Assembly (NCBI GenBank): GCA_009602725.1
Contig: WELB01000074.1
Location: 562,757 to 588,026, forward strand
DNA from: Spirogloea muscicola
Lineage: Eukaryota > Streptophyta > Zygnematophyceae > Spirogloeales > Spirogloeaceae
DNA length: 25,270 bases
Reading direction: 5' to 3'
The notes under the pieces: model-generated
Told to the model about the DNA's origin: nothing
What the model saw: only the letters and a program-made list of their open reading frames with translations
Databases searched by the model: none
Part shown: in pieces, positions 645 to 21,700 of the stretch
Numbering within the stretch: the first letter of the stretch is position 1
Layout of the letters: each line of letters starts with the position of its first letter
Position numbers and translations under genes: made by a program

Positions 645-720
645 GCTGCTCGTGCTGCTCGTGCCTTCTGGGCTGGACTTTCACAGCCACTGCCGCAGAG
701 TGTCAGAGCTGTATGTTGGG
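645..720 (+). repeat. LINE-family 3'-end remnant with hairpin
   Basis: Contains the hairpin GGCTG (671-675) ... CAGCC (684-688), preceded by a short C/T-rich stretch and followed by an ACTGCCGC block. It closely resembles the copy at 4895-4945, including the downstream AGAGCTG. This is one of at least eleven copies of the same 3' end in the window. No coding tail is recognisable just upstream, so it is an isolated 3' fragment. Confidence 0.5.
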
Positions 721-1149
721 GCGGGACAGAGAACGCCGCGCAAGGCCGCTGGATATCTCGACCTCGAAGTGCCAACTGGGCATCGTCTGCAAGCAAGCGT
801 GACAACTGGCGCCGGGGTGGTCTGCTTACTTCCTCTCCTTGGCGCCTGCCACTTGGCGACTGCGGAGCCCCCTCCTCTGCCGTTTGTTGGGAGCTCCTAG
901 ACTCAAAAGCAGTTGGTGGTGACGTCGCCTGCAATGATCCGGGGGCCTCCGCCCAGCGCGCTAGGCGACGAGATGAGCATGACGCGCGTGACACGCCCCA
1001 GCTTCAGGGGCATGATGCTGGAGTTCTCCTTGGCCACTCTGTAGCCTCTGCCTTCAGGAAGATGCCATATATGGCGTTCCGAAGAAGGTCGTGCGTGCCT
1101 CCCCTCCCCGTGCGCACCGAAGCATGTGTGCCGCCAACGCCGCGGCCTC

Positions 1150-1350
1150 TGACGCCGCTTAGGGCTTTTCGTCAAGGGATTACATTCCCGGCGGCTAGTC
1201 TTTCCGACTTGCGGTTCCTAACTGGAGGTCACTAAGTGATCATTTTACAGGGGAAGCTTTCGAAAAGTGTTTTCGGCCCTGTCGGACCTTGTCATTCCTT
1301 TTCGGGCTGGCTGTTCACAGGCCTCGCCTCCTTTGAAATAGCCACTTTCG
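1150..1350 (+). mobile_element. LINE fragment: C-terminal ORF tail plus 3' UTR
   Basis: The frame ending at the TAA at 1233-1235 reads FRQGITFPAASLSDLRFLTGG at its end. This matches the C-terminal signature of the better copies at 20525-20953 and 21093-21404 (S-SDLL-LTRGY). About 70 bases after the stop lies the family hairpin (1304-1309 paired with 1318-1323). It is followed by a pyrimidine-rich end GCCACTTTCGTTCTTCTGAG like that of other copies. The fragment is 5'-truncated: upstream the frame no longer resembles the family. It is a dead remnant. Confidence 0.6.
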
Positions 1351-1466
1351 TTCTTCTGAGCCCCACTCGCACTGCACCACACCTCGGAGGCAGGGTGGAT
1401 GGAGGCCGAGGAGGTGGTGAAATGCTGTCCGCCTGGCATACTGAGCGCCGCTTAGATTGACAGGGC

Positions 1467-1916
1467 CATTCACCATGCTGCAGCCCCTAGGGAGGATGCA
1501 GACAACAGCCGCTCGCGCCCCCGGTGGTTGCCTGTAGGCAGGAGCTCCGCAGCCGCGTTGAAGGAGCCCTTATCCACCTCCGCCATGAAGCGAGCTTGGG
1601 CCCGGAGATCGGTCGTATGCGAGAGGTGCGCGAATGAGACTACGTGCGCCAAGGCGGGGGGGTCCGCAAGCAGCACATCGCAGGCCGAGCGAAGAGCCGC
1701 CTGGAAGGGCAGCGAGCCGGTCTCCACGTTTGCAGCCGCCTGCCCCAGCATACGACCACCATGCCAGATGAACCGCTGGTACACGGGAGCCACAATTCGC
1801 GCCCAGTTGCCCAGGTATGCTGTCCGGCAGGCGCGAGCAAGCGGGCGGCAGCCCAAACCACCACGGCTCACTAGCAGGGAGGCCCGGTGAACAGAGGCCG
1901 GCGACTCGAGGAAGGC
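1467..1916 (-). mobile_element. LINE fragment: internal region of ORF2, downstream of the RT
   Basis: Read on the minus strand, this gives a continuous frame with blocks SRGGLGCRPLARACRTAYL and RLLSASSLGAAAW. This pattern (GGLG-RS-----AAYLGSW, then after about 100 residues LLSA---GA-AWL) is typical of the segment between the reverse transcriptase and the C-terminal domain of many non-LTR retrotransposon polyproteins. The frame stops right after AAW at 1467-1469, where an intact element would continue. The RT motifs themselves (for example YADD) are not present. It is the only internal piece in the window; the other remnants are C-terminal. Assignment rests on remembered family pattern, not on a search. 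Confidence 0.6.
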
Positions 1917-1954
1917 CGGATGATGGACATGGAGGGGTCGTGCTTCCGGACAAA

Positions 1955-2020
1955 GACGTGAGCACTTCCAAGATGGGGGCGAGGCTGTAAAAAGCTAGCC
2001 CAAAGAATGGACAATACTCC
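1955..2020 (-). repeat. LINE 3' end with hairpin, minus orientation
   Basis: The minus strand reads TTGTCCATTCTTTGGGCTAG, then GCTTTTTACAGCC and a CGCCCCCAT block. This is the same order as the plus-strand copies at 16220-16290 and 20450-20520. The hairpin arms are at 1983-1988 and 1996-2001 with one mismatch. It lies immediately upstream, in the minus direction, of the internal LINE fragment 1467-1916, so two copies abut. Confidence 0.55.
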
Positions 2021-2182
2021 AAACCACACGACTATGCAAGATAACAGCGATTGGGAGCATGAGAATCCCAATCGTAAGCAGCCACAAGTCAATGCAACTT
2101 GCAGCCGGACGTCACCGTGGGGGCCGCGATGCGCATGTGAGAAGGCGAGGGAGGTGCCGCGCTGACGCCCCGGACGTACCTC

Positions 2183-2397
2183 GGGGACCCAGGGCCGGGT
2201 CGCGCCAATGCTCCCGTCGCCGCCAGGGTGAGCTTGGGCGGCACACGCCAAAACCGGACCCTCGTACGCCTTGCGGGAGATGCGCCGGCCGGCACGGTTG
2301 GCGTCCCGGGAGGTTGTCGCGCAGGCAAACAGCCCCGTTTCCCGAGCGCCACTGGCAGCCTGAACGACGCCGCCATGGCCGCTGCGGTAAATGTCAA
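2183..2397 (-). other. Possible first exon with transit-peptide-like N-terminus
   Basis: A minus-strand frame starts with ATG at 2395-2397. It encodes an N-terminus rich in Ala, Arg and Pro with few acidic residues (MTFTAAAMAASFRLPVALGK at the start), the composition of a plastid transit peptide. It runs to a good donor (GAG|GTACGT). No following exon can be recognised: LINE debris lies downstream at 2020-1467. It may be the stranded first exon of an interrupted gene, or a chance frame in GC-rich DNA. Confidence 0.2.
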
Positions 2398-2400
2398 GGC

Positions 2401-2418
2401 TTAGGGTTAGGGTTAGGG
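2401..2418 (+). repeat. Interstitial telomere-like repeat (TTAGGG)3
   Basis: Three perfect TTAGGG units. A second, inverted array of CCCTAA-type units lies about 310 bases downstream (2727-2752). The unit is TTAGGG here, while the right end of the window (25083-25115) has TTTAGGG-like units. Confidence 0.8.
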
Positions 2419-2726
2419 CCTCCTGATTCATGAATGTGAGAATATGGTGATTCAGCGATCGAGCTGGGCACATTTGAGCAGCCCAGCGGGCCGAAGGAGC
2501 GCTCCCTATTCGCCAGAAAGCTGGTCGAGCCTTAGCTGGTGGCACGAGGACTTGTCAATTGCCGTCCTGTTTTCGGGCATCAGTCAGCGACCCTCTATGT
2601 GCTGACTCGTGGCTACTGAGCGGGTCAGCTTGGCAGCAGCTGATTTACATCTGTCAATGTTCTTGCCTTTGTCCTTGGTCAATCTGGCCCTCCACCACTC
2701 AATACATACTCCATCTGCCCAGGCTT

Positions 2727-2752
2727 ACCCTAACCCTTAAGCCCTAACCCTA
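2727..2752 (-). repeat. Interstitial telomere-like repeat, inverted
   Basis: ACCCTAACCC followed by TTAAG and CCCTAACCCTA. On the minus strand it reads TTAGGG-type units, opposite in orientation to 2401-2418. Together the two bracket a segment of about 310 bases with no recognised gene, which includes a short stretch near 2552-2580 faintly like the LINE 3' end. Confidence 0.75.
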
Positions 2753-2864
2753 TTGGCTCACTCCAGATCTGAGACCATGCGGTGCTCCCGTGCGCCCTAG
2801 CCATGGGTGCCACTCACCTTGGGTGAGGGCAGAGTCTGTGCTAGTCTGACTGCTGTCTGTCGCC

Positions 2865-4022: not shown

Positions 4023-4945
4023 GCTACCGCCCTCTACATGTTTGCTGGCGCACCCACGTCAACCGTGTCTGGCTGGGCCACGTCCAGCGCGGAGCGCAAG
4101 AAGGAGCGGCACTACCAGGACCATCCCCGAGGGGACCATCTTTGCCCGTGTGCCATGGATATCTACGGCGGCTACGGCTTGAAATGATCCTCTCTGATCC
4201 AGCATCTGGCCCGGCTGGTTGATGCGTGTCGTAGAAGTCGGGGGGGCAGCTTGGGCCACTCCAGCATTCCACAGGCCTTAGTTGCATACTATAGAATGCG
4301 TCTCTCGCTTTGTTTGCTGCGCTCGCAAGCCTTGGCTCTTCATCAACGTGCATGGCGCGCTCTAAGTCGGGCCTCCGGCTTTCGTGGCGGCGCTCCAGCT
4401 CCCCAAATTAGCTTGTCCGATTTGTTCGTGCTCTCCCGTGGGTACTAATGTCACCTTAGGCACCTTTAGTTTAGGTCTCTATATTATGTAGCCTTGTTTA
4501 GTTTGCACTCGCCTCTGCTTGAACTGTGTATTGGCTTGAATTCGCCTCCCTTTTCATTTCATGCGCCCCGCGCGCCTTCCCCCCCTCTACATGTTCTGAG
4601 CTCCCTTTGCTATCGTCGTCTATGGCTTGCGCTTGTCGGTCTCGGATGCAGACGCCCCTTGCCTTCGCTTTATGATTGCAAGTCGGCCTTGCACCTGCCG
4701 CTGCTTTCAGCCTCTGGAAAAGTGACTCGCTTTCATCACCGACGTGTCCAACTTCGCCTGCTGAGCTAGGCTGCTGAGTATCTCTGTAAGACTAGGCTCT
4801 TGCTTTGCTTGAGGTCATTGAGAGTCCACTTACTGACGTCTTGGAGACTAGTATCCTGCTTTCTGCGCCATCCGGCCCTTTCAGACCTAGTCCATACCTC
4901 TGGGCTGGCCTTCCACAGCCATTGCCGTCACTTTGCAAGAGCTGT
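4023..4945 (+). mobile_element. LINE copy, 5'-truncated, with frame-broken ORF end and 3' UTR
   Basis: One frame from 4023 reads through APTSTVSGWATSSAERKKER, then HYQDHPRGD and MDIYGGYG. It hits a stop at about 4182 and resumes in frame with YYRMRLSLCLLRSQALALH and SLSDLFVLSRGY before TAA at 4446-4448. The order (conserved DPT block, RKKERHY--HP, (A)MD-YGG-G, R-RLS--L-RSQALALH, SDL--L-RGY) is the same as in the copies at 20525-20953 and 21093-21700. It corresponds to the C-terminal region after the RT of LINE polyproteins. The stretch after the stop is unusually long (about 450 bases) before the family hairpin at 4902-4920, so an insertion in the 3' UTR is likely. Confidence 0.65.
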
Positions 4946-6876
4946 TTTCTTTGCTAAGCCCCTCTACTGGGGCTGCTTGCCCATCCTTGTCATTTCTTTT
5001 GGGACTGCCTCTGGAATTACGTCCTCCTTTGCCTGAACCACCCACCCTCCTGAAATGAGCACTCTTTGTACCCTTTATTTGTACCTTTTACAGCCTTCCC
5101 CCTTCGCGCCCACGCCCTTCAGGCGTGTGCGCCCTTCAGGTCCCCCGGGGCAATCGGCATCAGTTTAATTTCTCCAAGCGAGGAGGCCCTTAACGATTTC
5201 CGGTGCATTGGTGCAAGCTGTGGTGTTGACTACCTCAGCATATTGTATGTCACTTGTCTTGTTCACCTCCTCTTACGATCACATCGTTACATGGCATCGG
5301 GCAGTACTGGTAACCTCTCCCTCACATCAAGCATGGAGCTATATCTAGAAGCACTTGAAAGCTTACCTGCGCGACAATTGGCCTGCGCCGGGCTTGCCAG
5401 CCCAGTGGTACCTTTAAGAGCTGCTTACTGAGCCCTTGAGCAGAGAGATGAGCTGCGTGGTTTGGCGCACACTCAACACCCCACCTTTGCAGATGAGCAC
5501 CGAGATGTTGAAGCCAAAGGTGGAGTCCGGACGTCCTCACGCGCGCCGGCACTGTCAATGATCTGCCTGAGTCTCTCGAATTGCTTTTGGTCGCCAAGCA
5601 ACACCAGGCGACTCTAGGCTGCCTATGGACAAGATGACAATGGACGAGATTATAAATGTCCAGATTGTTGGACAGTCATGCTCTCTAATCCCAGACTGCT
5701 GTCGGCGCCTATCTCGTCAACCCCCTTTGGGCTACCTTCTCAAAGCCACTGCCACATTATCAGAACAGTCCTTTAAGCTGTCCAGGTAATTTACCAACAT
5801 AGCAGTCCTTGATTTAGAGACTCTTTTGGTGTTCTCCTCCATCCATGTACTTATTGAGCTTACTGCTTCCAATACTGCAGGACAATCAGTCAGTCCTTGA
5901 CTCCACCTTTGGACTTAAAGTCCAACTTGCAACGATGCAGCACTGCTTAATCAAACGAGTAGGAACCTCCACCATTACGTACCAGTCCTGAGGGCTTACT
6001 GCGCAAGCTGTAGTGCTATGAACACCCTCTTCGATATGGTACTGCACCACACAAACAGCTTTACAGCCCGAGTCGGCTCAAATGGCAGCTGCAGTCATGG
6101 TAAACGTTCCACCCAGCTTCTTTCAACAGGATATATTCTCCAGGTTAGAGAACTCTACATAAGAGCTGATTGGGCATGTGGATACATCAACTTACATCCT
6201 TTTGCTGCAAGGGGTCTGGATCACTAACTTAAATGTACATGACATACCCGATCAAATTACTGATGAGGAGCTGCGGAAGAAATTGCAAACAAATAACACC
6301 AAATGCCCCCCACTTTCTCTTCAAGGCACTTTCCCATACAGGTGCGTTCACACATTTCCTCAAAGCTGTTGAGATACGATCATTGTGACACGGACTAGTC
6401 TGCTTGTAAGCCTGCTGTAGCAGCTTGCTTTGCTTCAAGGAACATAGCACCTCCATTTGCACGGGAAGGTACAGTAAGCTGCTCAGCGATGCACGATTTC
6501 CAGGTCAACAGCATAGGTCAGCTGCAGCATCACCAGCCTCTCAGCTGATCCTGTGAAGCAACGCCGACAAGGGCGTGAAGAATGTGAGGTCTTGCTATGC
6601 CATAGGGCAGCTACCTTTCCACAGATCATACTGCTTCTCTACAGGTCATACTGCTCCCTACCAATTTCTCATGGCACGAGTATCTACATCTGAGCTTTGT
6701 ATTTTACAACGAGGGCTTGCCACCACCACCGACTAATACAGGAGCTCAGAGGAAGCCATCTAGGCTATCCTGCAGAAACTTATGATCTGGAAGAATGCAT
6801 TGTGGTCGTGGGAGGACACCAAAGGCAGGAGAGAGGTGGGAGGCAATAGAGGGATAAGCAGTGGCTAAATTTGTGC
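4946..6876. other. AT-richer spacer, no gene confidently assigned
   Basis: GC content is clearly lower than in the host genes. Minus-strand blocks at 5119-5217, 5367-5484 and 5541-5613 read like protein and have plausible splice sites (GTAAGC, GTGAGG, CACAG, TGCAAAG), but their phases give conflicting models. The plus strand over the same bases is just as open. A plus frame at 6178-6372 (DIPDQITDEELRKKLQ, ending at CAG|GTGCGT) is another candidate exon. A perfect short palindrome (TTGGACTT-A-AAGTCCAA) lies at 5909-5925. I found no family match. Confidence 0.35.
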
Positions 6877-9800
6877 TCAAAGGAGGTGACGGTCAAGGAA
6901 CTCGAAGATGCGCTCCTCCATGTACGTGCGATCACGCAGAGAGCGTGGCATATGGCGCTCGTCAGGAAATACGAGGAGCTCATAACCCTTAACACCGGAC
7001 CCGTTCAGGGCATTCACGAGCCGGGCGGTGTGCCGAAAGTGCACATTCTCATCAATCATCCCATGCACAAGCAGCAAGCGGCCTTGCATTCCAGCTGAGA
7101 CGTGCCGCATGACCGACGCTGCCTCATAGGCTGCCGGGTTTGCCGCCGGCGTGCCCATGTACCGTTCTGTGTAGTGCGTGTCATAACCATCCCAGGACGT
7201 GACCGGTGCGCCAGCGACCGCACAGCGGAACATGCCAGGCAGCTTGGCCAGCGCCATGGCCGCAAGGTATCCACCATAGCTCCACCCATAGATACCGATG
7301 CGAGCCGGGTCCGCAAGGCCACTCTTGACCAGCCAGTGCACGCCAAAGGCCTGGTCCTCCACGTCCACGGTGCCCATGGCATGCTTAATTGCGCCCTCGA
7401 ATGCCAGCCCGCGCCTCGCGCTGCCGCGGTTGTCCAGCTGCATCCCCCCCCGGCAAGTTGCCCACCGTGGGCAGGCAAGGGACGTGAGGGCCAGCAGACA
7501 CTTGCAACCGAGCAACTTAGTGAGCTTCTCATTTCTTGCTGCGGAAGATAGTACTTAAGCTTGTCCAGCTTATTGAGTCAATTCTTCTCATTATGTGAGA
7601 CGCGTCCATTAACGTGACAGGCCATGCATTACAGGGTCAGGATCCATTGGCCACCAAGTAATTGTAACCACGATAAGAAGCTTCTCTGCTGAGCAATCAA
7701 GGGCATGAGGCCAACCAACATCACAATTCAAGGTTGTTGACAAACATGCCACAGTGGAGGGCAAGCGGTCGAGTGCCTCACCTTCCAGACTAGGAAGCCA
7801 CGAGAGCGCAGGAACTGCGCCCGCATGTCCACCGTGGATATCCACGAATTGCACACCGTCTGCACGTGCGGCCCACCGTAGACGCTGACTACAGTGCGCC
7901 AGGGCGGCGGCCCATACACACGCTCATCCGGCCGGTAGAGGGCGCCGAAGAGGTCCAGGCCTGCCTTGGGTGACATCTGCTGCGAATGCAACAGAGTTCA
8001 AAAACTCTACGTCAGCACGGTAGCGCAGGCCTTAGCACAAGAACCAGTGGGAAGCATCAGTAGACAAAGATGTGTCTGCATGCTGCACAGCATGTCCTCC
8101 AGCACCCACCAAATTGGTGAAGTTGCTAATGAAGTTGCGAAGCGGCAACCAAGCCCATTGTCAGGTCCAAAATTAACACCAGGAGCCTCTCAGAGTGACA
8201 GACAGGATTCAACAGAGGAGGTGGAGAGAGGAAGGGGGGGGGGGATGAGAAAAGGAAGGCAAAGGACGGAGCGGGCTGACGGAGGCAGGGGAAGAGCAGG
8301 GGGGTCAGGGGCTGGCCTTCACGAGCTCCGGCGGCCGCAGCTGCAGCCGGAGGACGCGCGGGTGCGGCGTCGGCGGCTCGAAGATGGGCGCCAGCATTCG
8401 GCCTCCGTCCAGCGTGCACAGCCGTACGCACGGCGATGTGTCCATGGAGTCGTGCGAGTCAACGAACGACACAAAGGCGTGGTCGAGCACGACCGAGTGC
8501 CGCCCCGCTCCGACCGTGAGCCGCCGCGGTGGCGGCGGCGCCGCCGCTGCCGCTGACACCGGCTCCAGCGGCACCACGTACAGGTGCGTCTCCAGCGGCC
8601 CGTCGACGGTGGCGGTGAAGTAGACGAGGCCATGCGCCTCATCGACGCCGGCGACGGCCTCCACCATCCAGCAACCAGCCGTGAGCGGTCTGAGGGGCTC
8701 GCCGGAGGCGCCGTAGACATAGAGGTGCCGGAATCCGGTGCGCTCGGATGCCCAGATGAAGTCGCCGTGCTGCAGCGGCGTGAAGCAGTCGTGCAGATTC
8801 ACCCACGTCGCATTCTCCTCGGCAAAGAGCTCGCGGCGCTCGCCAGTCGCAACGTTGAACAGCAGGACCAGCAGCCGCGTCTGCGCGCGGTTCTGGACCT
8901 GCGCCACGAGGCCGCCGCCCGGCAGCCACGTCACGCGCGCCAGGTACTCGTGCTCCTCATTGCCGCCGCCGCACTGCAGGTCCATCCACACGGGCTCTGC
9001 CGCAGGGCTGCCGACGCCACCGGCGGCGGCCGCGAGCGCCGCAGCCGGGGCAACCACACCAAGGCGCACGACGGCATTGGCCTGCCCTGCGAACGGGTAC
9101 GCGTGGTCCTCCTCGACGTCGGCCCCACCAGCGGCTGCCTTGCCCTGGTGCACGATGCGAAACGGCGGAATCGCAGACGCGTCCACTTCGGCAAACGCGA
9201 CCAGCTGGCTGTCCTGCGACCACCAGAAGCCGAGGCGCCGCTCCATCTCCTCCTGCGCGATGTACTCCGCCAGGCCTCGCGTCTGCATCCGCAGCCGCCA
9301 TGGCCCACCACCACCAATGCAAGCCAGCTGTCAGACGGAGGCCTGTCTTGCCATTGGCAGCTACACTCAAGCGGGCGTGGTGAGCCATGGCCGGGGATTG
9401 GCGGCCTCGCCGCAAGCCTGCAAGTTGGGAAGGCTGCGGGGGGCGGCCTGGTGGCCATGCGATGTGGCGCACCTTGCCCTGGGCCTTGCCACCATACGTC
9501 AGCTGGACGTGCTCGCCGACGGAGGCCGAGATGACGTGCAGCTCGTCGTCCATCACGAAAGCGATCATGGAGCCGTCAGGCGAGAGCTGGGGATCGAGGA
9601 TCGGCGCTGCCGGCGACGCAGGTATGCACAGCCGGAACTCCCTGCCCAGCCCGTCCTGCACAAAAACCTGCAGCGGCGGCGGCAGCAAAGGCGACGGTCG
9701 GCAGCGCATCTGTCAGGGCGGCTGGCTGGAGTGGCGGGGCCACCAGCTGGCAGGGCTGAGAGGCGGCGGAGAGGGAGGCAGCACGGTGTACCCCGGTGGG

Positions 9801-10411: not shown

Positions 10412-10572
10412 GGCTTTGCAGGTGGCTATGGCTATGGGAGCCCCAAGCTGTGCGTCTTGGCCGCCTGCCCGCCGATCGCGGCGTCGTCGCCACAGCTACC
10501 GCAGAGCGCGCGAGCAGGAGCGCCTGATCGGCGGCGCGACGGAGAGGCTGGCATCCTGTCGTCGCCGAGGCN

Positions 10573-10576
10573 GAGA

Positions 10577-11301: not shown

Positions 11302-14300
11302 ATGGCCGAGGCTGCGGCGTCTCAGGCGGTCGCCGCTGCCGCCGCCGAGCCGGCGGGGCCCGCAGACGACGGCCTAAGCCGGGAGCAGGTCCTGGCGCTG
11401 TACCAGAACTGCATCAAGCTCGCGTCGGAGAACGTAAGTGAGCTTTGCCGCGGTGCTGCCACCATATGGGCGCTGCCGCTCAGCGCAGGCTTGGACGTGC
11501 TGCTTGAGGGGCTGGGGCTGCATGGCCATTGCTCCCGGCAAGGTCAGCGGACGGCGCGTCAGTGACATGTCTGCGCTGTGGCGGGACGCGGGCCGCAGAA
11601 GATCAACCAGAAGAACACATGGAGCCTGCCGCTGATCGATCACATCAGCGAGATTGTGCTCGGCGGCGACGACGGCGACGACGCCCAGACCAACTTCCAA
11701 AAGGTGTGCCGATTTCTGTCAGAATTTTTCGGCAGCATTCATCGCGCCATGGCCACCAGCAGGTAGTACGCAGTGTGCAAGGCTGGCGGCATTGACGCTG
11801 CCTGCGGCAAGGCTCATGGAGGCCCGGTGGCGGCGGCGGCGATGTCGTCGTGGTAGGCCAGCTGCACGCTGGAGGCCGGCGTGAAGATCTACTCGTACCG
11901 CGTCGACTCGATGCACTCGGAGACGTACAAGGTCCTCAGCGCGCTCAACCGCTCGGCGGCTGGCCCGGCCCCGGAGGAAGGTCAGCGCCGCTGGTCCTCG
12001 TTTGTCGGTCGTCGTGCTTTCGCCAGACCAACTGTGCGTGGCATCATCTGAGGCCATCGACTTGCCACGGCGGCCTTTGGTGTCGTGCTCGCTAGCCGGC
12101 GACGGCGACGGTGACGGCGACGGTGACGGCGACGGCGACGGCGACGGCTCTGGCGAGGACGACAACGAGTCTGGCGCAAAGCGCAAGTTCTCCAAGAAGG
12201 TGCGAGCTCCCACAGCCACCAGTCTGGACTCCGCTGTCCAAGTGCCGCCTGCGGGGGCTCGCCGCCGCCGTTCATCGCAGCCGGTCCTGGCCAGCGATGT
12301 CTAAGGCTTGGCGCTCTCTGTTGGGGCCCGCAGCTCGCCTGCCCCTCGGCGACTCTGGAGCCGCCAGAGGCGCTGAATGTCAAGAAGTATGACCGTGAGT
12401 TGCCATGCGCTCCGTCGCCCGCCACGCAGCAGTGACGCCGGCCAATGCCGCCACCCGCTTGGCAGCCTGCGCCGCTCCAGCTGTCACGTGAATTTTTCGA
12501 ATCCACCAGCTGCGCTGATGCTTCGTTGCGCCGCTGCTGCGCCGGCGGGCCCTTCAGTGGCGTTCAGTGTGGACCCGCTCTTCCACCAGACGCAGGCGCA
12601 GTTTGACGAGGGCGGCGCGCGCGGCCTGCTGCTTCACACGCTCAGCGTCCACCGCGGCTGCGAGCTGGTCTTCGACTCGCTCGAGGTCCCTGACCAGACG
12701 CCGGCTGCGCCCTCGGCCGATCTCGCCGGCGGCAGCGGCGACGATGTCGTTGACCTCTCCTTTGCTTGGAGGGAGGTGCAAGCCGTGCTGGCAGCGGCTG
12801 ACGCAGAGACTGAGATCAGCCCGACGCTGGACGAGATCGTGGCGCTCCTCGACGACCCGCGCCGTGCGGCGGCCGCTGCGGCCGGGTGCTCAGCAGCAGA
12901 GGCTGATGTGGATGGAGTGCTGCAAGCCCAGCGGCAGCTTGGCAGCGCTGCCACAGAGCCCAATGTGGGGTCAGACTTTGGCCCTGCCATGGACGACGTC
13001 GAGCCCTCTGATGCAGCCGGTGACTGGGATCCCCCCAACTGGGACCTCGAACCTGGCGATGGTGGGACAACGGTGGCGGCCTCTGATGGTGGGGTCAATG
13101 CCGACATGGAGTGCGTACGTGAGGTACCGACGAGACCGCATGCTGCTATCCGGCATGCCGGCAGGGCTGCACACTGCCTATGCATGGCGACCGGGCCCCC
13201 TGCCGTGCTGACTTCTGCCGTCATGCCATGCATGACACAGGACGGGGCCTCTGACTCAGAGGTCAGCGAGGACGAGTCCAGCCAGCTGGCAACGCAGCGG
13301 CGGGCGATCGAGTGGCTGGCCGCCAGCCTCGGCCTCACGGCACCCTCCAAGTCTGGCCGCGATCCCTGGCCGCACCTCAGGCCTCGAGGTGCGGGGCCTT
13401 GGAACACCCGTGCACCGATCAATATTGTACCATAAAGATCAATATATGATATGATATCACATGTGCTATGTGATATAAATTTCCTTTGGGTGGACTGCCG
13501 GGGGCTGCGGTGCTATCTAAAGCGGGGGGGGGGAAGATTGCAATTGGTCATGCTTGATCTCGTCTACATTTGTTGCATAATGTGTGTTAACATCGTCAGG
13601 ATTGTCACGTGGGTCTGGCATGACAGCAGATCAGGCCGCCAGGAAGGCCAGGCGCGAGCGGAAGCAGCCGGTCTACATCGACTTCTACGACCTCAGCGCC
13701 GTGGACGTGGCCGCCTTCGCACCGCCCGAGGACCCACGTGAGACGCTCCTGGCCCGGTCGACGGCCACGGCGGTTGCTAACACGCTGCTGCCGCCTGGAG
13801 GCCACTACCAGCCGCTCAACCTTGTTCGCCTCTACTTCCGGCCCAACGTCTTGGTATGGCGTCTGCTCATCCTCGTTGCCTTACAGCCCTATCACAGCCA
13901 GAGTTTTGGACCCCATTACCTAGACTAATCATAACGACATCCTTCAATACTATTGCCAACACAACATCTAGTGGGTACTGATGCTGCATGGCCGTCAGCC
14001 CGTGTCAAGTATAGCAGTCCATTGAGCAACCGTCTTGAAGCCTAAGATGTACCAGCAGACTCATCTACGTTGTCCTTGTCAAGGGCTGCCGCTGTCCCGA
14101 CAAACCTGCAATAAGTTGTTTGCAACTTGCAAAACTTGGACTAATCTGGACTATTTTGGACTGCTTCTTTACAGTGCGTGAGGCGGAGGAGCAGGCAGAG
14201 AGGGGCACGCCGGGCCTGGGGACAAAAAGGCCTGATCAGTCACAGAGATTATGATGGTGATCACGATGGTATAGAAATGGACGATGTCCATGCTGGCAGC

Positions 14301-15092
14301 AACAGCCCCTTTGATGGATCGACAATGTGGGACCTGGGCGATGAGGAGCACAGCGAGGTTGACGACTTCCTCCCGCAACCCCGGAAGGTGAGGATCCAGG
14401 TACACCCAAACTTGTGAGCACTACTGCGGAATTAGGAACGGCTGAGAGCACGTGTACTTCGTGTACGTGGCACTGGGGCAGACTTTAGTGCCCATTAGTG
14501 TCCATTGAATTTTTAGTAGCCACAGGAAGTCCAGGATCCTTAAGGGTGCTTACTCCTTGCTTTTAGTCATCGTTTGACATGATTCTCGCCAACTTTAACG
14601 TATTGCTGCAGGTGGAGAAGGTTGACATCCACTATGCCCGCGCCTCCAAGCAAGTGGATGTGAAGGCCCTCAAGGAGACACTGTGGACCAAGCTGCAAAA
14701 GATGACGCCAGATTCCAATGCAGATGTAAGCTCCCGTTCTCGTGGCCAGCTTGGCAGCTGCTACATCACATTGTGCAGAGGTGCCTTCAAGATACCAAAG
14801 CCTTTGCAGTACTGAGGCACTCCATCCTTGCTGATTGTAGGATGGGGACGGGGAAGTTGTCAACGAAGGCGAGCCCGTGCAGCAGGGTGAAGGCTTGTCC
14901 TTTCGCAGCCTGCTCCAGCAGTTCCCGGAGGATTGCTCTGCAGCCCCCCTTGAGGACATCTCCGTGCATCTCTGTTTCATATGCATGCTGCACCTTGCTA
15001 ACGAGAATAATCTGCAAATCAGCAGTAGCTCCGACATGAGTGACCTCTGCATCCGCCCTGGCGCAATGTTGGTTCCGGACTCTATATTGTGA
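11302..15092 (+). CDS. CAPH: Condensin complex subunit CAP-H (kleisin, Barren family)
   Basis: Kleisin of condensin I: its N-terminal domain binds the SMC2 neck and its C-terminal winged-helix domain binds the SMC4 cap, closing the ring that compacts mitotic chromosomes. Eleven exons: 11302-11433, 11599-11703, 11857-11980, 12096-12199, 12334-12394, 12558-13114, 13241-13388, 13630-13853, 14175-14387, 14612-14725, 14841-15092. Every junction is GT-AG, phases agree, and the result is 677 residues, normal for the family. Diagnostic blocks in order: YQNCIKLASEN and KINQKNTWSLPLIDHI (about 34-60), CTLEAGVKIYSYRVDS, YDLAFSVDPLFHQTQAQFDE (about 174-193), acidic middle (DSEVSEDESS), PVYIDFYDL, VDIHYARASKQVDVKALKE, and the C-terminal VHLCFICMLHLANENNL. 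Exon 4 carries an unusual Gly-Asp repeat. Exon 9 starts basic (RRRSRQ) and then turns acidic; its 5' part is the least certain. Confidence 0.95.
12098..12148 (+). repeat. In-frame GGC-GAC minisatellite in CAP-H exon 4
   Basis: Eight tandem GGY-GAC pairs plus one GGC, encoding (Gly-Asp)8-Gly at about residues 122-138 of CAP-H. Two units use GGT instead of GGC, so the array is not perfectly homogenised. It adds an acidic, flexible linker between the N-terminal helical domain and the family block that begins VKKYDLAF. Confidence 0.9.
13454..13476. repeat. AT-rich inverted repeat in CAP-H intron 7
   Basis: ATATCACAT (13454-13462) and ATGTGATAT (13468-13476) form a perfect 9-bp stem with a 5-base loop. 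It sits in an AT-rich patch (about 13420-13490) that also has GATCAATAT twice (13437-13445 is one copy, 13417-13425 the other). The patch contrasts with the GC-rich flanking exons. Confidence 0.6.
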
Positions 15093-15154
15093 CATCGCGG
15101 ATGAGAAGGCACGCTGAGGGTGGAGCTCCCTGCAATACACCAGACTACCACTCC

Positions 15155-15788
15155 TCAAAACATGCGATGAGAATTTGCTAGTCTTTTGCTGTTCTTGCAA
15201 TTTCTGTACTTCTGATGCTGGTCTCCAATATCTGCATGTGATAGTTACAGTCAGTTGATGGGCAATGTGAGCATCTCCTGACCGTAAATAGAGGGCAATG
15301 CCGAGGAAGCTGCGGTCAGTGCTTCCAGTGCTCAAGAAGGTTGTGCATGTCAATCCCACAAAACAGCTTCTTCCCATAAAAGTTTCCCGCTGCAGCTGGA
15401 GGACCACTGATTCACTAAGCCACAAGCTTTCAGCTATGCGCTTTGTGAGAAGCAAGAACCTTTTTGTATCCTTTTCAACGAGGTCCTCCAGTGTGTCCAA
15501 CTCTGGCTCTGGGCTGTGCAAGCCACAAACTTTTCCAGGTTTTATCTGTCGGGAGATCAGATTGAGGAGCATAACAGACGCATCAGGTGCTTGGCGAGCA
15601 GCAAAATAAGAATAGCAGTTGCTACTTAAGTGGCCGCTCAATAATGCCTTGTCAGCAGCTGCAATCAAGAGATTTGAGCGGCAGGAAAGGAGTCGCTCAG
15701 CCTGAGGCGGCAGCCAGGGCACGGCCAGCTTGCAGAAGAAGTGGCTACCATGAACAGCCTCGTTTTGACTCCTGATGATTAGCTGCAA
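15155..15788 (-). other. Long minus-strand open frame, doubtful gene
   Basis: A frame without stops runs from 15788 leftwards, past 15092 into the antisense of CAP-H exon 11, to 14787. It starts with a possible acceptor (CTTGCAG|CTAATC). Its first part, down to about 15655, overlaps LINE ORF-end debris that is in another frame on the same strand. The middle (15650-15240; for example LEDLVEKDTKRFLLLTKRI) reads like protein and could be a genuine exon ending at TTTACG|GTCAGG near 15289. No family is recognised, and an open frame of this length could also be chance. Confidence 0.25.
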
Positions 15789-15892
15789 GTTGGAATAAGC
15801 AGCAGGGCAGGGTCGCCCTGCCGGTGTCCTGAAGCGGCAGCCAAAGCAGGGCCAGCATGCAGAGTGAAAGCCTGGAAGTGCTGCAGCACTTG
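15655..15892 (-). mobile_element. Two LINE ORF-end remnants in direct repeat
   Basis: On the minus strand, 15892-15779 reads FQAFTLHAGPALAAASGHRQ and ends in TAA. About 50 bases on, 15730-15655 reads AGRALAAASG, a stop, then ATPFLPLKSLDC. Both align with the family signature (SQALALH-RAGR-LAAASGLR-G). Their DNA is also alignable over about 75 bases, so this is a repeated pair of decayed copies. Between them lies GAGGCTG...GCCACTTCTTCTGCAAG, like the pyrimidine-rich end of the element's 3' UTR. Confidence 0.55.
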
Positions 15893-15969
15893 CTGTCGTT
15901 GTTCTCCAGCTTTAGCGCATCAACTGCGAGGTCCGCCACTCCCACGATGCTTTCCAACTCCTCATCTCA

Positions 15970-16320
15970 GGGCCTTCTTCATTCTTCTGTTGGCTGGCTA
16001 CTCACAGCCCTCGCCCCCTTTACAATAGCTGCTTCTCCGGCGGCTAGTCATTCTGACTGCTCTTATCGTGCTCTCGCTGCTGCCTCTGGCTTTCGTCAGG
16101 GGGATTATTTTCCGGCAACTAGTATGTCGGATTTGAGGTCCCTCACTCGTACTCACTGAGTGGCTCACCCTTCACCGGTTCTGAGCTAGCGCTTCTGGCC
16201 CCTTCGTAGTTTGGCCCCTTCGAACCTTGTCAATGCTTTTCGGGCTGGCTTCTCACAGCCCTTGCCCCCATTGGGAGAGCCACTCTCTCTTCCTATCTAA
16301 AGGTTACCATGTAATTATCC
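15970..16320 (+). mobile_element. LINE copy: C-terminal ORF tail plus 3' UTR with hairpin, nested
   Basis: A first 3' end with hairpin (15991-16010) is followed by a coding tail reading RALAAASGFRQGDYFPATS and SDLRSLTRTH, with the stop at 16157-16159. A second 3' UTR follows with the hairpin at 16242-16260 and the block CCCCCATTGGGAGAGCCACT. That second 3' end is almost base-for-base the same as 20430-20520. At 16033-16055 a piece of the tail (SPAASHSDC) precedes the fuller one, so one copy has landed in another. The copy is 5'-truncated and non-functional. Confidence 0.65.
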
Positions 16321-16374
16321 TACCGGACAAGCTTTTGGGAAAATGCTTTCTGGCTACTGACTAGAGGTTACTGA

Positions 16375-16560
16375 GAGTCCGCTTGCTGCTGTCTCAGTGC
16401 CTTAGCACTCCGGCTCCTTCAGACCTTGTCCAATCCTTTGGGCTGGCCTCGCCCAGCCACCAGTTCATCTGGCCGCGCTTGTTTCCCTTTTTCTGGCGCC
16501 TTCGGACCTTGCATTGTCATTCGGGCTGCCTGTTCACAGCCGTTCAGGCTGCGGCGTGTG
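16375..16560 (+). repeat. Two further LINE 3' ends
   Basis: Hairpins at 16440-16458 (GGGCTGG ... CCAGCC) and 16523-16541 (GGGCTG ... CAGCC), each preceded by the CCTTCRGACCTTG block. They lie in tandem about 80 bases apart with no coding tail between them. Confidence 0.55.
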
Positions 16561-16815
16561 AATGCGCAGCAGTATCCTCGCTGCAGCGTTCACACACGGC
16601 GGGGGCCGCGGCTGAGTGGACGAGGGGGGGGGGCCAGATGACCGTTGTCGCAAAAGGCGGTTTGAATATTTGAATCGATTTGGTCCGCTGATGAGTTAAT
16701 CCGGGGGCCCTAGCAATTTGCATCGACGGCTCGATGAAACCCATCGGACGGCTCAGAGTGGCCATCCACCTGCTGCAGGCCCCCCCTCCCCACCTCCCTC
16801 CTCAGGCACCCCATC

Positions 16816-16861
16816 GCCGCCGCCGCCGCCGCCCCCGCCGCCGCCGCCGCCGCCGCCGCCC
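16816..16861 (+). repeat. (CCG)n repeat at the 5' end of the coiled-coil gene
   Basis: CCG-type trinucleotide repeat of about 45 bases ending in a single undetermined base (N at 16862), seven bases before the proposed ATG. Read in frame from further upstream it would add poly-Arg or poly-Pro; I treat it as 5' leader. Confidence 0.85.
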
Positions 16862-16868
16862 NAGCACG

Positions 16869-19800
16869 ATGCTCATCGAGGAGGTGGAGCCCGGTGCGAC
16901 GCCGGCGCCGGCGGCGGCGGCGCCTGGGGCCGACGCGACGGCGCTGGTGCAGGTGCTGGAGGGCAAGCTGCAGCTGCGCGACGACCAGTGGGCACTCGAG
17001 CGCGAGGAGCTCCGGGACGCCCTGACGCTGGTGTGTGCAGGCCGCCGCCGTCGCCGCCGCCGCCGCCACCGCCGCCGCTGTTGCCAGCGAAGCGTCTCGC
17101 CAGCTACACGCCTTCACCTGGCCGGGAGGTGGCGTGGGCGCAGGTGGCGCAGCAGGCGGAGGTGCGGGATGCCGAGCGCGCGTACGAAGCCGCGGGCCTG
17201 CGCAGCGAGCTCGGGCAGCACCGCCAGGCCGTGCACCTCCTGCGCTTCCAGCTCGGTGCGGCAAAGCGCCAGTTGCAGCAACAGCTGCTGGCACCTCGGC
17301 GCTCCTGCTGAGTTTTAGTTTTATTGGCATTTGGCACGTCAACTGTCGGAGCTGAGCCGTGCAGACTGCCGCTGCAGGCCGAGCGGAAGACGAGCGCGAG
17401 GTCCTGGACGACAGATGCGCCGTCCTGGAGGCGCTGCTCGCCGCGGCCAAGGTCCGAGACATGCGACGCAGCGGCGCTGACGACCCACTGCGGGAGTCGC
17501 TGGGGATCCGTGTGTTCGGATGCTGACGGCTGCTGCGATGGCGTTCACTGCGTCTTTCAGGACCAGCGGCAGGAGCTCGCGGAGCAGCTCGACGCCCATG
17601 TCCGGCTAGCGGCGCAGCGCCATGCGGACGCGGAGGTGCGGCGGGCGGCCGCAGAAGCGGAGAGCGACGAGCGCGGCTTGCAGCTCGCCATGGCCCTCGA
17701 GGCGGCCGACCGCGGCCAGCGGCAGGCTTGGCAGGCGGAGGGCAAGGCGGAGCGGGCGGAGGCGCAGCTTGCTGCTGCGCTCGTGGAGAGGGGGGCGCTC
17801 GAGGAGCGGCTGCGCTCCATGGAGGCTGCTGCTACCGGCAGGTCAGCCACCGAGAGCTCCAGTCATGGCTGCCATGAAGGCGCATCCCGCTGAAGGTGTC
17901 TAGAGGCCACTGACAGAGCCTGCCACTCTGCTGCCGCCAGGGAGGCGGAGCTTGCGGCAGCTCAGCAGGACCGGCGCCATTGGGAGGAGCAGGACGTCGC
18001 TGAGGCCCTGGCGAGCGTGGAGCTTGTCGAGGCGCGCGCGCGCATCGAGGAGCTCGATGATGTGCTCCGCGACCTGAAAGCTCAGAAGGTGCACGCAGGC
18101 TTTGCCTGGTCCCCACCGTGCCGTTGCCAATGCCAATGACAATGACTAGTACGCTAGGGCCATTGCAGCCAATTTACACAATGTTTCTGAATTGCATATC
18201 CGCAGCAAAAGCTAGCTGCGGAGCTGGAGCGCTGCCGAGCAGAGCTGGCCGCAGCGCGCCGGGAGCTCCACGATGCTGTGGAGGAGCTGAACTTGGACCG
18301 CAGCGAGCAGGCTCATGCAACCAGCAAGACGGACGAGATGATGGCACGTTGCGCCGCAGCCTCAGTCGTGAGGACCCCAGCAACCACCACGGCATTGCTG
18401 GAGACTCAGCTGCTCTTGACAGCGAGCAATCTGCAGCACCTGATGATTATTTTGAATGCTGCCGCCAGGAAAAGCGGCGCATGCAGCAGCGGCTGGCGCA
18501 GACAGAGGCGGAGCTCGAGGCGTCGCGGCGGGACCTCGCAGCACAGCGGGAGGCAGGCGCCGTCTCTGCTGGCGCAGGGGCGTCCGAGAGGGAGCAGGAG
18601 GTGTCTGCGGCGGCGCTGAACGAGCACGAGCGGCTGGCGATGGCGGCGCAGCGCGCAGAGGGCGAACTGCAGGCAGCGCGCGCGCGCCTCGCAAGCCTGC
18701 GGGCTGAGAACGGCGACCTGCGGAAGCTCTACGCAGAGCTCGAGGAGAAGATGGCACGCACGGTGCGGCATCTCGTCAACCCTTGTACCTGCACTGCCAA
18801 GCAATGCTCGCAATGCAGCTCGCATCGCAGCTGGCAACGACCTGCCAAATCGCTGGAAGCCCAGCATGGTTGACTGCAGCATCCCATGTTGCTCCGGGCA
18901 ATGCCATTGCAGGACGCGGAGCACGCCAAGGCGACTGCTAAGCTGAGGCGACGACCGTCAGCAGCAGAGGTGGACGAGGACGAGCCCGTCTACTCGCCGC
19001 CCCGAAAGCGGGCGCCTGCCAAGAAGGCTCCTGCAAAGGTGAGGGTGCCGTCCTGGTTGACTTTACTAATTGGCACCACCTTTAGATGCTACTGGTCTTG
19101 CTCGTTCTTGATGTCAAGCTGTTCTCACTCATAACTGTGAAGCACATTAAGTAAAGCTTCTTCTCAGTCACAATGTGACATGGAATTCTGTGCTACTTCA
19201 CTATCAATGAAGTCTGCGACGATTTCTGTGTCGTGTACTGTATAATTTGTATCGTATCTATGTAAACATGTTTGGCCAGTGCACGGGGAGTGTATGGTCA
19301 AGGGAACGATTTCACTTGCATTTGCATAATTGGCTATGTCTCAGCTGTGCGGAAAACGCGTGTGCTTGCATGGGTGTCCTTACTGGACGACAGTGCTGGC
19401 ACAACTTGACCTTACTACTGCTGATACCTTGCTGCCTCAGGTGAAGGCAAATAGGCCGCCCTTAAGGCCGCTTCACACGAACGAGTCAACCAATGATGAG
19501 GCAAGGCGGCCACAGCACGAAGACGGCTACAGAGGTGATGGTGGAAAAGGCAATGTTGGCAAGGGGACAGGCATGCCAAAGGCCGCCACTGTGGCAGAGC
19601 CAAGCGATGGTGGCGATGACAGGATGCCATTTGCAAGTGACTCCAATAAGGGTCACTCGACATCCTCGGCCATGACCATAACAGGTGACGGCGCTAAGCC
19701 GCGATCTGCAGCAGCAGCACCAGAGGGTGGGCGCAAACGCAAGCTCCAGCCCGTCCTTCCTGCCGGTAGCGGCGGCATGACGGCAGCGGCATCTGGTCTG

Positions 19801-19929
19801 CTGGCAGCCGCCGAGAGCCTGCTGGCACGGCCGCGTGCCAGCACCCCCTCACTCCTCTCCAATAATGCCATCTTCGGCCACGCCTTCAAGATGCCGCGCT
19901 CAGGCTCGGAGGCCAGCATTGCTCATTGA
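16869..19929 (+). CDS. Coiled-coil protein with basic tail, probably nuclear; unknown function
   Basis: Nine exons with matching phases: 16869-17030, 17144-17255, 17378-17451, 17561-17841, 17941-18088, 18206-18367, 18469-18762, 18913-19038, 19441-19929, giving 615 residues. After a short Ala/Pro-rich N-terminus, residues of about 25-420 are one long Glu/Ala/Arg/Gln-rich coiled coil (QALEREELRD-type heptads; AEAQLAAALVERGALEERLR; RRDLAAQREAG; LRAENGDLRKLYAELEEKM). Then come an acidic stretch, a bipartite-type nuclear signal (PPRKRAPAKKAPAK, about 440-453), a low-complexity tail with a second basic cluster (GRKRK, about 551-555), and an end SNNAIFGHAFKMPRSGSEAS. I do not recognise the family. 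The layout (long coiled coil, nuclear signals, short hydrophobic/basic end motif) would suit a chromosome, spindle or nuclear-matrix protein; that is inference. It lies downstream of and codirectional with CAP-H, and converges with ATIC. Confidence 0.8.
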
Positions 19930-20304
19930 CGTCAGTGCCTCTCGGCCTGGCTCTGCTTCTGGCAAAGCAGCGGGTGCTTTGATCTGATGATACTCACGTG
20001 CCATTGGGTTCATTGTTGAGGCTGCTGCTGGCTCATACTTGTGCTGGTGATTCCTGCAGCATTGAATGATGCTGTGTCCCCGTCAGCATGCAATGATCTC
20101 TGTCATGCCCGGGCGCGTGGCGTCGTCGTAGCGTCGGCTAGAGGGCGGTTGGGCGGAACCGAGCAGGGCTAACCCGGGTCGGATATCTCAGGTAGGACGG
20201 TGGTTCAGGGAACCTCGGCGAAGGTAACCCATGGGGTGACTCGCTGGGTAGGGTGCGACCCGTATGGGCGGGCAGGAGGAGGCGGCTGCTGATATTAAAA
20301 GAGC
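19930..20304. other. Spacer after the coiled-coil gene, nothing recognised
   Basis: Contains the 3' UTR of the coiled-coil gene and then a GC-rich stretch (about 20108-20290). I see no open frame with family features, no tRNA cloverleaf and no clear polyadenylation signal (no TGTAA near the stop). Confidence 0.4.
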
Positions 20305-20321
20305 GGCTGTGAAAGCCAGCC
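20305..20321 (-). repeat. LINE hairpin, minus orientation
   Basis: On the minus strand this reads GGCTGGCTTTCACAGCC, the family hairpin with its usual loop (GGCTG and CAGCC arms). The flanks are less like the other copies, so only the hairpin core is supported. Confidence 0.4.
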
Positions 20322-20429
20322 AGATGCACACAGGTGTTCTTGACGGAGCTACCGGCTAGGCAGACAGGGCGCTCTTAGACCTCCTCCCCCGTTCTGCCAT
20401 AGCCTCTTCAGGCCCCGCAGTCGCTGCTT

Positions 20430-20524
20430 AGCTCGTAGTTTGGCCCCTTCGAACCTTGTCAATTCTTTTCGGGCTGGCTTCTCACAGCCCTTGCCCCCAT
20501 TGGGAGAGCCACTTCTTCTCTTAG
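20430..20524 (+). repeat. LINE 3' end, truncated copy
   Basis: Near-identical to 16206-16300: CGTAGTTTGGCCCCTTCGAA, the hairpin GGGCTGG...CAGCCC (20471-20490) and CCCCCATTGGGAGAGCCACT, ending TTCTTCTCTTAG at 20524. There is no coding tail upstream, so this copy consists of the last 90 or so bases only. The next copy starts immediately after the CTTAG end. Confidence 0.7.
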
Positions 20525-21092
20525 ACAACTGACTGCATCGACTCCGCCAACCCCACCAGATCGGCGTCGTTCGCAGGGCACGCGGTCGGCCAGGCGGCCA
20601 GGGGCAAGGAGCGAAAATACGCTGATCACCCGGTGGGGGATGAATTCGCGGCCCTGGCGATGGATGTACACGGGGCTTTCGGCAGCCGCTGGCTGGATCT
20701 CATTCAGCGGCTTGCCCGCCAGGCCATTGACCGGCGGCCGGGTCTGCCAGGGGCGATGCCCGGCTTCAACGCCGCCGGTTCTCTCGCACAAGTCTTTCGC
20801 ATGCGCCTGGCCGTATCGCTTCAACGCTCCCTTGCCCACGCCGTCCATACGCGCGCAGGCCGTGCTATGGCCGCCGCCTCTGGGTCTCGGCGGAGTGCCT
20901 CTTTCCCTGCAGCGAGCTACTCAGACCTGATGTTGCTCACTCGTGGGTACTGAGCTTTCCTCTGCATCGTTTCTGTGTTCTGCAGTGTTTTGTAGTTTCT
21001 CCGGCTCCTCTTTCTTTGGCTTTGGACATTGTCCATTCTTTTTTGGGCTGGCTTTGCCAGCCCCTCTTCTCTATGGGCGCGCATCCTTCTTC
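20525..21092 (+). mobile_element. LINE copy, best-preserved C-terminal domain, plus 3' UTR
   Basis: An uninterrupted frame runs from 20525 to the TGA at 20951-20953 (about 142 residues). Blocks in order: DSANPTRSASFAGHAVGQAA, RGKERKYADHPVGDEF, ALAMDVHGAFGSRW, RMRLAVSLQRSLAHAVH, RAGRAMAAASGSR, SYSDLMLLTRGY. This is the part that follows the RT in LINE polyproteins (conserved NPTR/DPT, K--KY-DHP, A(M/V)(D/E)--G--G). The RT itself is missing. The 3' UTR carries the hairpin 21045-21063 and ends TTCTTCTTAG at about 21096. The fragment directly abuts another truncated copy on its left and an inverted copy on its right. Confidence 0.75.
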
Positions 21093-21700
21093 TTAGTACC
21101 CCCGGGTCAGCAGTAGGAAGTCAGATGAGCTGAGGGGAGGAAGAGCAATCCCGCTGCGCAAGCCAGAGGCTGCTGCAAGGGTGCGACCGGCGCGGAGGTG
21201 CAAAGCAAGCGCTTGGGAGCGCTGGAGGGACATAGACAATCGCATGCGGTAGTAGGACACAAGACCCAAAGGCACCGAGCCTCCAGGAAGTGCTGCACCC
21301 TGTTCCCGGCGCCGCTGGTCAGCTTGAGATGGCAGCAGCGACAAAAACGAGGACCACCGACCCCCGTAACACCCATGGATGTCCATGGCCAGGAAAGGTA
21401 TCACCCGCCGGGTGGTCCTTGTACTTGTGCAACTTCTTCTGTTCGGCCACCTTCACGGCATAGCCTGTCTCAGAAGTTATGGGGCCCTTCTTTCTATGGG
21501 CGCGCACTTCTCTCTTTCTTCCGGACGATGTCGGTGAGGACGACGTCCATGAGGAGCCGCTTGCCACCTCCCAGGGGGACGCCAACCAGATCGACGCGCC
21601 TCGTCGCCGCGGCGCCCCGGGGCAGGAGAGCCCCGGGGCGCCGGAGCCAAGTCCCTGTACCTACTGCCTTGACCCCCCCCCTTGGAGAGAGGCCATCTGT
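21093..21700 (-). mobile_element. LINE copy in inverted orientation, frame-broken
   Basis: Read on the minus strand from about 21700: RRVDLVGVPLGGGKRLLMDV and VLTDIV, a disturbed stretch, then SETGYAVKVAEQKKLHKYKD and HPAGDTF. A one-base frame change at about 21390 follows, then MDIHGCYGGRWSSFLSLL, YYRMRLSMSLQRSQALALH, RAGRTLAAASGLR, SSSDFLLLTRGY and TAA at 21093-21095. It reaches further upstream than the other copies. There is no 3' UTR of its own: the stop codon overlaps the 3' end of the plus-strand copy. The disturbed stretch (about 21480-21525) contains a plus-strand piece resembling a LINE 3' tip. Confidence 0.7.

Follow-up and report, generated by a model that had tools for sequence, protein, structure and literature searches.

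A stretch of 25,270 nt from the alga Spirogloea muscicola (contig WELB01000074.1, positions 562,757 to 588,026; the whole stretch is called the window here) contains pieces of two host genes and the nested remains of long interspersed nuclear elements (LINEs) with a putative restriction-like endonuclease (RLE), several families of which end in a short GGCTG...CAGCC hairpin. The assembly that holds the window comprises 153 Mb in 471 contigs, and the window has 61% G+C. By blastn, 4,122 of its 25,270 bases were matched by the LINE-bearing loci fetched in this work (L numbers below), a rough figure because the fetched loci contain non-LINE sequence too and unsampled LINE families go uncounted.

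The pattern GGGCTG-N5-9-CAGCC gave 11 matches on both strands of the window, where 0.32 were expected and none of 100 shuffles reached 11; near-palindromic sites are scored twice, once per strand, and the 11 matches stand for eight places. The shorter pattern GGCTG-N4-10-CAGCC was observed 10 times against an expectation of 1.13, and one of these matches, at 13314, falls within a host gene and does not mark a LINE end. A first-pass annotation had listed eleven hairpins as the 3' ends of a single LINE family. Those at 670, 4902, 15992, 16242, 16440, 16523, 20471 and 21045 on the plus strand and 20305-20321 on the minus strand are present as pattern matches; the two at 1304 and, on the minus strand, 1983-2001 are present with one pair broken in each, by the 3' arm CAGGC and the 5' arm GGGCTA, respectively. 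The single family did not survive: the hairpin ends are spread over several families (A, B, C, D, E and H). As annotated, the open reading frame (ORF) stops ending at 1235, 16159 and 20953 lie 69, 83 and 92 nt before the hairpins at 1304, 16242 and 21045. A fourth pairing, of the stop at 4448 with the hairpin at 4902, was mistaken, because 4448 closes a family F copy whose 3' end lies near 4590; the 4902 hairpin is that of a family E copy with a separate stop at 4819-4821.

Positions 20290-21474 form a three-level nest, in which a B copy is inserted into the stop codon of an H copy on the minus strand and an A copy into the left duplication of the B copy. The minus-strand hairpin at 20305-20321 is that of the H element, which is interrupted by the nested B copy and adjoined by the A copy. 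The annotation had taken the elements to terminate in CTTCTTCTTAG, with CTTAG as their end. Because CTCTTAGA stands on both sides of the A copy (20372-20379 and 20518-20525), the terminal CTTAG is target, as the 4-10 bp duplications described below also show, and CTTCTTCTTAG is part element tail and part duplicated target.

Table 1. Coordinates of LINE remains, duplicated targets and host gene pieces in the window.
Feature	Position	Strand	Details
Hairpin GGGCTGGACTTTCACAGCC, decayed 3' end	670..688	plus	pattern match; C/E-like by eye
Decayed A-like copy	1168..1375	plus	ORF end ...ASLSDLRFLTGGH, stop 1233-1235, hairpin 1304, tail
RLE-LINE ORF fragment, frameshifted	1351..1928	minus	58% aa to L037 residues 986-1157; 1156-1182 in another frame
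Decayed A-like 3' end	1960..2031	minus	hairpin GGGCTAGCTTTTTACAGCC
G-type copy	2508..2715	plus	ORF end and G-type 3' untranslated region (UTR) without GGGCTG hairpin
F-type copy	4044..4590	plus	ORF fragment with one in-frame stop; stop 4446-4448; 3' end near 4590
E-type 3' end	4819..4955	plus	stop 4819-4821, hairpin 4902-4920
Hairpin of 5'-truncated A-like copy	15992..16010	plus	
A-type copy	16067..16285	plus	ORF end ...LRSLTRTH, stop 16157-16159, hairpin 16242-16260
C-type copy	16354..16490	plus	ORF end LLTRGY, stop 16372-16374, hairpin 16440-16458
Decayed 3' end, 5'-truncated	16506..16545	plus	hairpin 16523-16541
H-type 3' UTR	20290..20371	minus	hairpin 20321-20305 (GGCTGGCTTTCACAGCC); ORF end at 21474-21093 minus
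Target-site duplication CTCTTAGA	20372..20379	plus	left flank of A copy
A-type copy, 138 nt	20380..20517	plus	5'-truncated within 3' UTR; hairpin 20471-20489; terminus ...GAGAGCCACTTCTT
Target-site duplication CTCTTAGA	20518..20525	plus	right flank of A copy
B-type copy	20526..21090	plus	ORF C-terminus (90% aa to L037), stop 20951-20953, hairpin 21045-21062, terminus near ...GCGCATCCTTCT
Right target-site duplication TCTTAG of B copy	21091..21096	plus	overlaps H stop codon (21095-21093 minus)
H-type ORF C-terminus, frameshifted	21093..21474	minus	...SSSDFLLLTRGY, stop
DPP-IV-like S9 peptidase, host gene piece	6877-9330	minus	Peptidase_S9/DPPIV_N domains
Condensin subunit 2 exon, host gene piece	12377-13435	plus	Cnd2 domain

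An Rfam scan of the window returned no family reaching its gathering score. Telomere-like interstitial TTAGGG/TTTAGGG tracts occur at 2401-2418, 2725-2752 and 25082-25117, and two of them flank a G-type LINE end. Among the fetched loci, L093 contains an LHCII (chlorophyll a/b-binding) exon, whose top single-domain match was chain 7xqp_a (273.5 bits), from a moss, and whose top whole-sequence match was the multi-domain 9vfj_2; these matches point to the green lineage and no further.

Element protein and families

Six longer stretches have open frames of 1406, 1410, 1558, 1130, 833 and 780 aa, the first three being single frames from stop to stop, and in these six the hairpin lies 89-98 nt past the ORF stop. 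The long copies encode, in one ORF, finger-like motifs, a reverse transcriptase (RT) closest to that of R2, a zinc knuckle and RLE motifs. In the 1406-aa ORF of L037, RVT_1 was the sole Pfam family at E<=1 (E 2.4e-13), and the RT profile searched against the PDB (E<=10) matched three distinct sequences, all of them R2 proteins, with a best E of 4.4e-8. Two CCHH/CCHC-like fingers begin the list of motifs in L037 (residues 188 and 366); Pfam backing for these N-terminal fingers is weak (none at E<=1 in L037; zf-met at E 0.0097 in L040, below its cut-off). There follow an ADD motif at residue 841, a knuckle CX1CX12HX3C at residues 1176-1195 and, at motif level, the RLE motifs RRxDL...DVV plus KEKKY at 1292. 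All six rows of alignment A3 preserve the four knuckle residues, with the knuckle one residue shorter in the G row; in the RLE motifs the last Y is replaced by H in some A3 rows and the second K by H in L025.

By these features the elements are placed in the RLE group, with a deviating knuckle. The first-pass annotation was correct in seeing LINEs with shared hairpin 3' ends. They are RLE, R2-like elements and not L2-type LINEs with an apurinic/apyrimidinic endonuclease (APE): no APE endonuclease was found in the Pfam scan of the L037 ORF, where RVT_1 stood alone at E<=1. They are not R2 proper, because insertion is dispersed; copies sit in the ORFs, UTRs and hairpins of others and not in a single 28S rDNA site. 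Ty3/gypsy elements were rejected as carriers of the hairpin, the best PF00078 matches in the genome (L031-L034) being long terminal repeat (LTR) retrotransposons by their gag-pol order. These four loci are near-identical and Ty3/gypsy-like, with protease, RT, RNase H and integrase-like stretches (named by eye) in one long frame.

A DNA search with window positions 20430-20526 yielded 1302 first-look candidates; 40 were scored and 49 matches resulted, the top 40 of them 98-100% identical to the query over at least 90 nt. A 321-aa query from an ORF running into a hairpin end gave 22,164 first-look candidates, 124 scored and 125 matches, and protein queries for families G, H and F gave 14,139, 16,081 and 14,203 first-look candidates; these counts (14,000 to 22,000 per protein query) are rough and overlap. 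We fetched 3' flanks by ORF alone, so that the hairpin played no part in choosing the ends. For A/B/C-type ends, 20 of the 125 matches were picked for spread of identity, and in every one of the 20 the hairpin stands at the homologous position, 65-100 nt past the stop, with one arm base altered in L048. At L048 and L058 the pattern flagged a later hairpin; the first one was read by eye and then recovered in re-analysis. The hairpin is also present in the D copies L040 and L041, and GGCTG...CAGCC lies 52-55 nt past the stop in 16/16 H-type ends (of 150 matches). G-type ends instead have CTTTGTAC-YTGGCC-N3-6-GGCC in 16/16, a self-complementary GGCC...GGCC at a similar position. Family F termini (L110-L121 and window 4446-4590) read CATGCGCCCCGCGCGCCTT or near variants, are GC-rich and self-complementary, and are followed by CTCT-like flanks.

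Residue identity at the ORF ends is 64-69% among A, B and D; H shares 50-54% with these, F 43-46% and G 33-35%, and C-type ORF ends are 70-71% identical to the A query. A tree of the ORF ends (86-140 aa, apart from one F row of 52 aa; C and E left out) is open near the root. In all, eight or more families (A-H) lie nested among one another. The GGCTG hairpin is the mark of A-E and H, and further lineages in this group do without it.

Conservation of the 3' end and insertion sites

Between-family alignments of seven representatives from A-E were set against shuffles of both the tail and the upstream parts. For every one of the 19 between-family pairs the last 66 nt scored above all 200 shuffles (z 3.7 to 11.8), whereas the 3' UTR upstream of them stayed at the shuffled level (z -0.7 to 2.1; 5 to 156 of 200 shuffles reached the observed value). 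Conservation is thus confined to the end of the 3' UTR, which supports the shared 3' ends of the annotation; fourfold sites between A, B and D are saturated (28-41% identity).

In 24 aligned tails of A-E, the commonest pair was kept in 23, 22, 23, 23 and 23 rows at the five stem positions, and RNAalifold predicted the 5-bp stem alone; in this set D_L013 was selected for its hairpin, and DNA similarity that took in the hairpin served to select the E rows and some C rows. Loops differ between families in length and sequence (CTTTG, GCTTCTCA, CCTCTC, GCATTTCA) and both arms persist, so the claim that arms stay paired while loops vary holds at the level of families, with the arms kept as sequence and not by compensatory change. 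In subfamily B2 an arm C-to-T change keeps a G-U pair in 5 copies; other arm changes are single-copy and break pairing (L039, L048, L090, L091 and window 1304), which is also expected of dead copies. The TTGTC-AT box, outside the stem, is strongly conserved. Minimum-energy folds of single 78-nt ends include the hairpin in 3/4 A, 3/3 B, 1/1 C and 1/1 D ends, and fold z is clearer in B, D and E (-1.7 to -3.4). When F and G were added in a joint alignment (A4), the stems did not line up, and no covariation claim rests on that alignment. No copy was seen to run past its end into shared sequence, by composition and by eye. From these alignments and folds we conclude that the 3' end is functional and that a hairpin is its likeliest form. 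A loop pseudoknot with GAGAGC was noticed by eye in family A, as an idea only.

Termini were placed in 68 of the 71 ORF-anchored ends by patterns from their constant parts (L048, L063 and L068 were not placeable). None of the 68 is followed by poly(A) (at least 5 A in the first 6 flanking bases), which bears out the annotation on this point. At L011, a run of ~60 A lies immediately 5' of an A-type copy (match at 1501). Flanking positions +1 to +5 are pyrimidines in 298/340 cases, compared with 1538/2720 at +16 to +55; the ends counted were chosen independently of the CTCTTAG-ending query, and part of the bias may be element tail because matching letters blur the border.

An automated search for nested insertions with the uninterrupted site in another copy gave candidates at 45 of 202 ends (64 in a looser search). 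Many were tandem or inverted-copy artefacts or too short and were set aside by eye, leaving seventeen cases that look clear, with target-site duplications of 4-10 bp: CTCTTTCC (L005), TCTGCATC (L036), TCTGAC (L002), TCTCTGAC (L010), CTCT (L012), CTCTGGCTTG (L014), CTGTCTATA (L016, looser search), CTCTT (L006), CTTTGGGCT (L003), TCTCCCAGCC (L004), TCTCCCAGC (L030), TCCCAGC (L024), CTATYCAG (L028), CTYGGC (family C, L025), CTCTC (family D, L018) and, in the window, CTCTTAGA (A copy) and TCTTAG (B copy). All 17 start with C or T, and 13 have C just before. Eight of them (L004, L005, L010, L012, L014, L016, L030 and the window A copy) were the query or seeds of the 20430-20526 DNA search, and CTCT is over-represented among those eight because that query itself ended in CTCTTAG. 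The insertions in L004, L024 and L030 are at or beside one place in a C-type hairpin, GGGCTGGCC^TCTCCCAGCC.

The fetched loci contain 76 A ends with near-intact termini, 71 of which were aligned to one A reference. These copies are 22 to 1232 nt long (median 135), and 69/71 are shorter than 400 nt, a distribution that is not the genome's because a 97-nt query guided part of the choice of loci. No 5' end shared among the 71 copies pointed to a short interspersed nuclear element (SINE) partner with the same 3' tail (at most 4 copies per length; sampled loci). Of the 76 A flanks, seven begin within the hairpin of another copy (8 pattern matches, one by chance); this is near the rough expectation from CTCT targeting and copy abundance, and we claim no self-targeting preference.

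Mechanism, alternatives and known systems

We consider it probable, on the sequence features above, that the hairpins are the 3' ends of related RLE non-LTR retrotransposon families with R2 architecture, which would move by target-primed reverse transcription in the manner of R2, with the 3' end of the RNA as a handle. A single protein with N-terminal zinc-finger-like motifs, RT, zinc knuckle and RLE would, if R2 is a guide, bind the final ~66 nt of its own RNA, made up of the TTGTC-AT box, the GGCTG...CAGCC hairpin and a variable block with a CTTCT-like tail; this RNA is expected to end in ...CACUUCUU without poly(A). The RLE would nick sites rich in pyrimidines, frequently C^YTCT in the top strand, in line with the target preference observed, and the freed bottom-strand end may anneal to the RNA's UCUU end and so act as the primer for reverse transcription. 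Synthesis would usually stop early in family A and leave the ~135-nt stubs seen in the sampled loci. A staggered cut, coming second in this model, would give the 4-10 bp duplications observed. Copies insert into one another, hairpins included, and this builds the nests observed in the window. Recognition of the 3' end by the RT side of the protein, combined with a C^YTCT-like nick and short-match priming, is the best-supported model by analogy, because the protein order is the same as in R2 and the last 66 nt are conserved. A wider scenario, which we hold to be rather unlikely, is a radiation of R2-like RLE elements with an ancestral 3' handle, in which one whole stem took the place of another from lineage to lineage (A-E and H having GGCUG/CAGCC, G having GGCC/GGCC or GGCCA/UGGCC) and RT and handle co-evolved; the loop of the handle (CTTCTC, CCTCTC) would offer a C^YTCT target, so that copies pile onto each other's 3' ends.

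Several results count against the preferred reading of R2-like RLE elements with a 3' handle. The knuckle has the CCHC order, but its CX1CX12HX3C spacing differs from the CX2-3CX7-8HX4C that, like KX2KY, is part of the published RLE-LINE signature; and a profile restricted to the RLE end hit no R2 chain in the PDB, so that the RLE call rests on motifs and their position. The related families F and G insert without a GGGCTG hairpin, which was seen in 0/12 F-type ends (of 150 matches; by eye) and in the first 105 nt of 0/16 G-type ends (of 134 matches). Compensatory change, which the annotation led one to expect, was found by RNAalifold in none of the 5 stem pairs across the 24 tails, leaving structure and sequence unseparated. 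The hairpin is absent from the minimum-energy folds of two E ends and of the window 1304 copy, and fold z is near zero in A (0.0, -0.1 and -0.7; -1.4 for the 1304 copy) and in C (-0.5). A candidate outer helix, GUCCAUU/AAUGGGC in B and D, failed a family-swap test of 21 representatives (rank 78 of 120; within-family pairing -10.34 against a permuted mean of -10.49 kcal/mol) and was dropped.

Some of these points also fit a 3' module read as linear sequence, whether RNA or DNA, in which the GGCTG/CAGCC complementarity is incidental or aids a sequence-specific contact. Arms that are nearly invariant across A-E with no two-sided change, the weak fold z in A and C, the E folds lacking the hairpin and a TTGTC-AT box that is also strongly conserved outside the stem all favor it; persistence of both arms around loops that vary in length and sequence by family, the G-U pair retained in the B2 copies and the other self-complementary stretch at a similar place in all 16 G-type ends do not, and we judge it somewhat unlikely, though worth weighing. 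Were the tail a signal for host transcript 3'-end formation (a terminator-like or cleavage hairpin) and not for the RT, the hairpin families would be expected to end shortly past the hairpin, as they do in a pyrimidine-rich stretch, with no poly(A) tail copied; however, F and G end at defined places in the same nucleus without the hairpin, and R2 relatives bind protein at the same region in the accounts consulted, which makes this reading improbable. We give still less credence to spread of the shared tail by recombination or template switching in place of common-ancestor constraint. Copies are deeply nested, and because the 3' UTR upstream of the last 66 nt is unalignable above the shuffled level between families, a tail swap would look the same; but the sampled families each have their own tail variant matching the ORF (A/A2, B2/B3 and D differ in both).

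With RLE retrotransposons using a 3' handle as the preferred reading, R2 is the natural comparison; what is said here of R2 and RLE elements and of the 3' tails of L2 elements draws on PMC4640811, PMC7650587, PMC12222951, PMC5678591 and PMC4176376. In these sources, the R2Bm protein binds a two-hairpin element in its own 3' UTR and the R2Tg protein binds the 3' 67 nt, pseudoknot included. The window families resemble R2 (R2Bm, R2Tg) in their single ORF, zinc-finger-like motifs, RT, knuckle, KX2KY RLE and 5' truncation, and their conserved last ~66 nt resemble the structured 3' 67 nt of R2Tg. Unlike R2, which uses the 28S rDNA site, they have dispersed C^YTCT-like targets and 4-10 bp duplications, and the knuckle departs from the published RLE spacing. 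The same sources describe RLE LINEs as mostly target-specific and some, as here, as inserting outside rDNA (some HERO families at microsatellites); they also place R2-type proteins under engineering for DNA insertion. A literature search of titles and abstract openings, with partial coverage, found no report of RLE LINEs of green algae. In this one genome the R2-like elements have multiplied into numerous dispersed and nested copies whose 3' ends come in several diverged forms, and such natural variation makes testable what in a LINE 3' end its protein reads.

LINE nests are also formed by Zepp of the green alga Chlorella, which has poly(A) ends, unlike the 68 placed ends here. L2 elements carry an APE endonuclease, unlike the present elements, in which RVT_1 alone was found together with RLE motifs. 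The likeness to stringent-type L2 LINEs lies in the 3' tail, where, in UnaL2 and ZfL2, a stem-loop is the likely recognition element and poly(A) is lacking. The elements described here work like a stringent-type LINE, yet they are not L2/UnaL2 elements.

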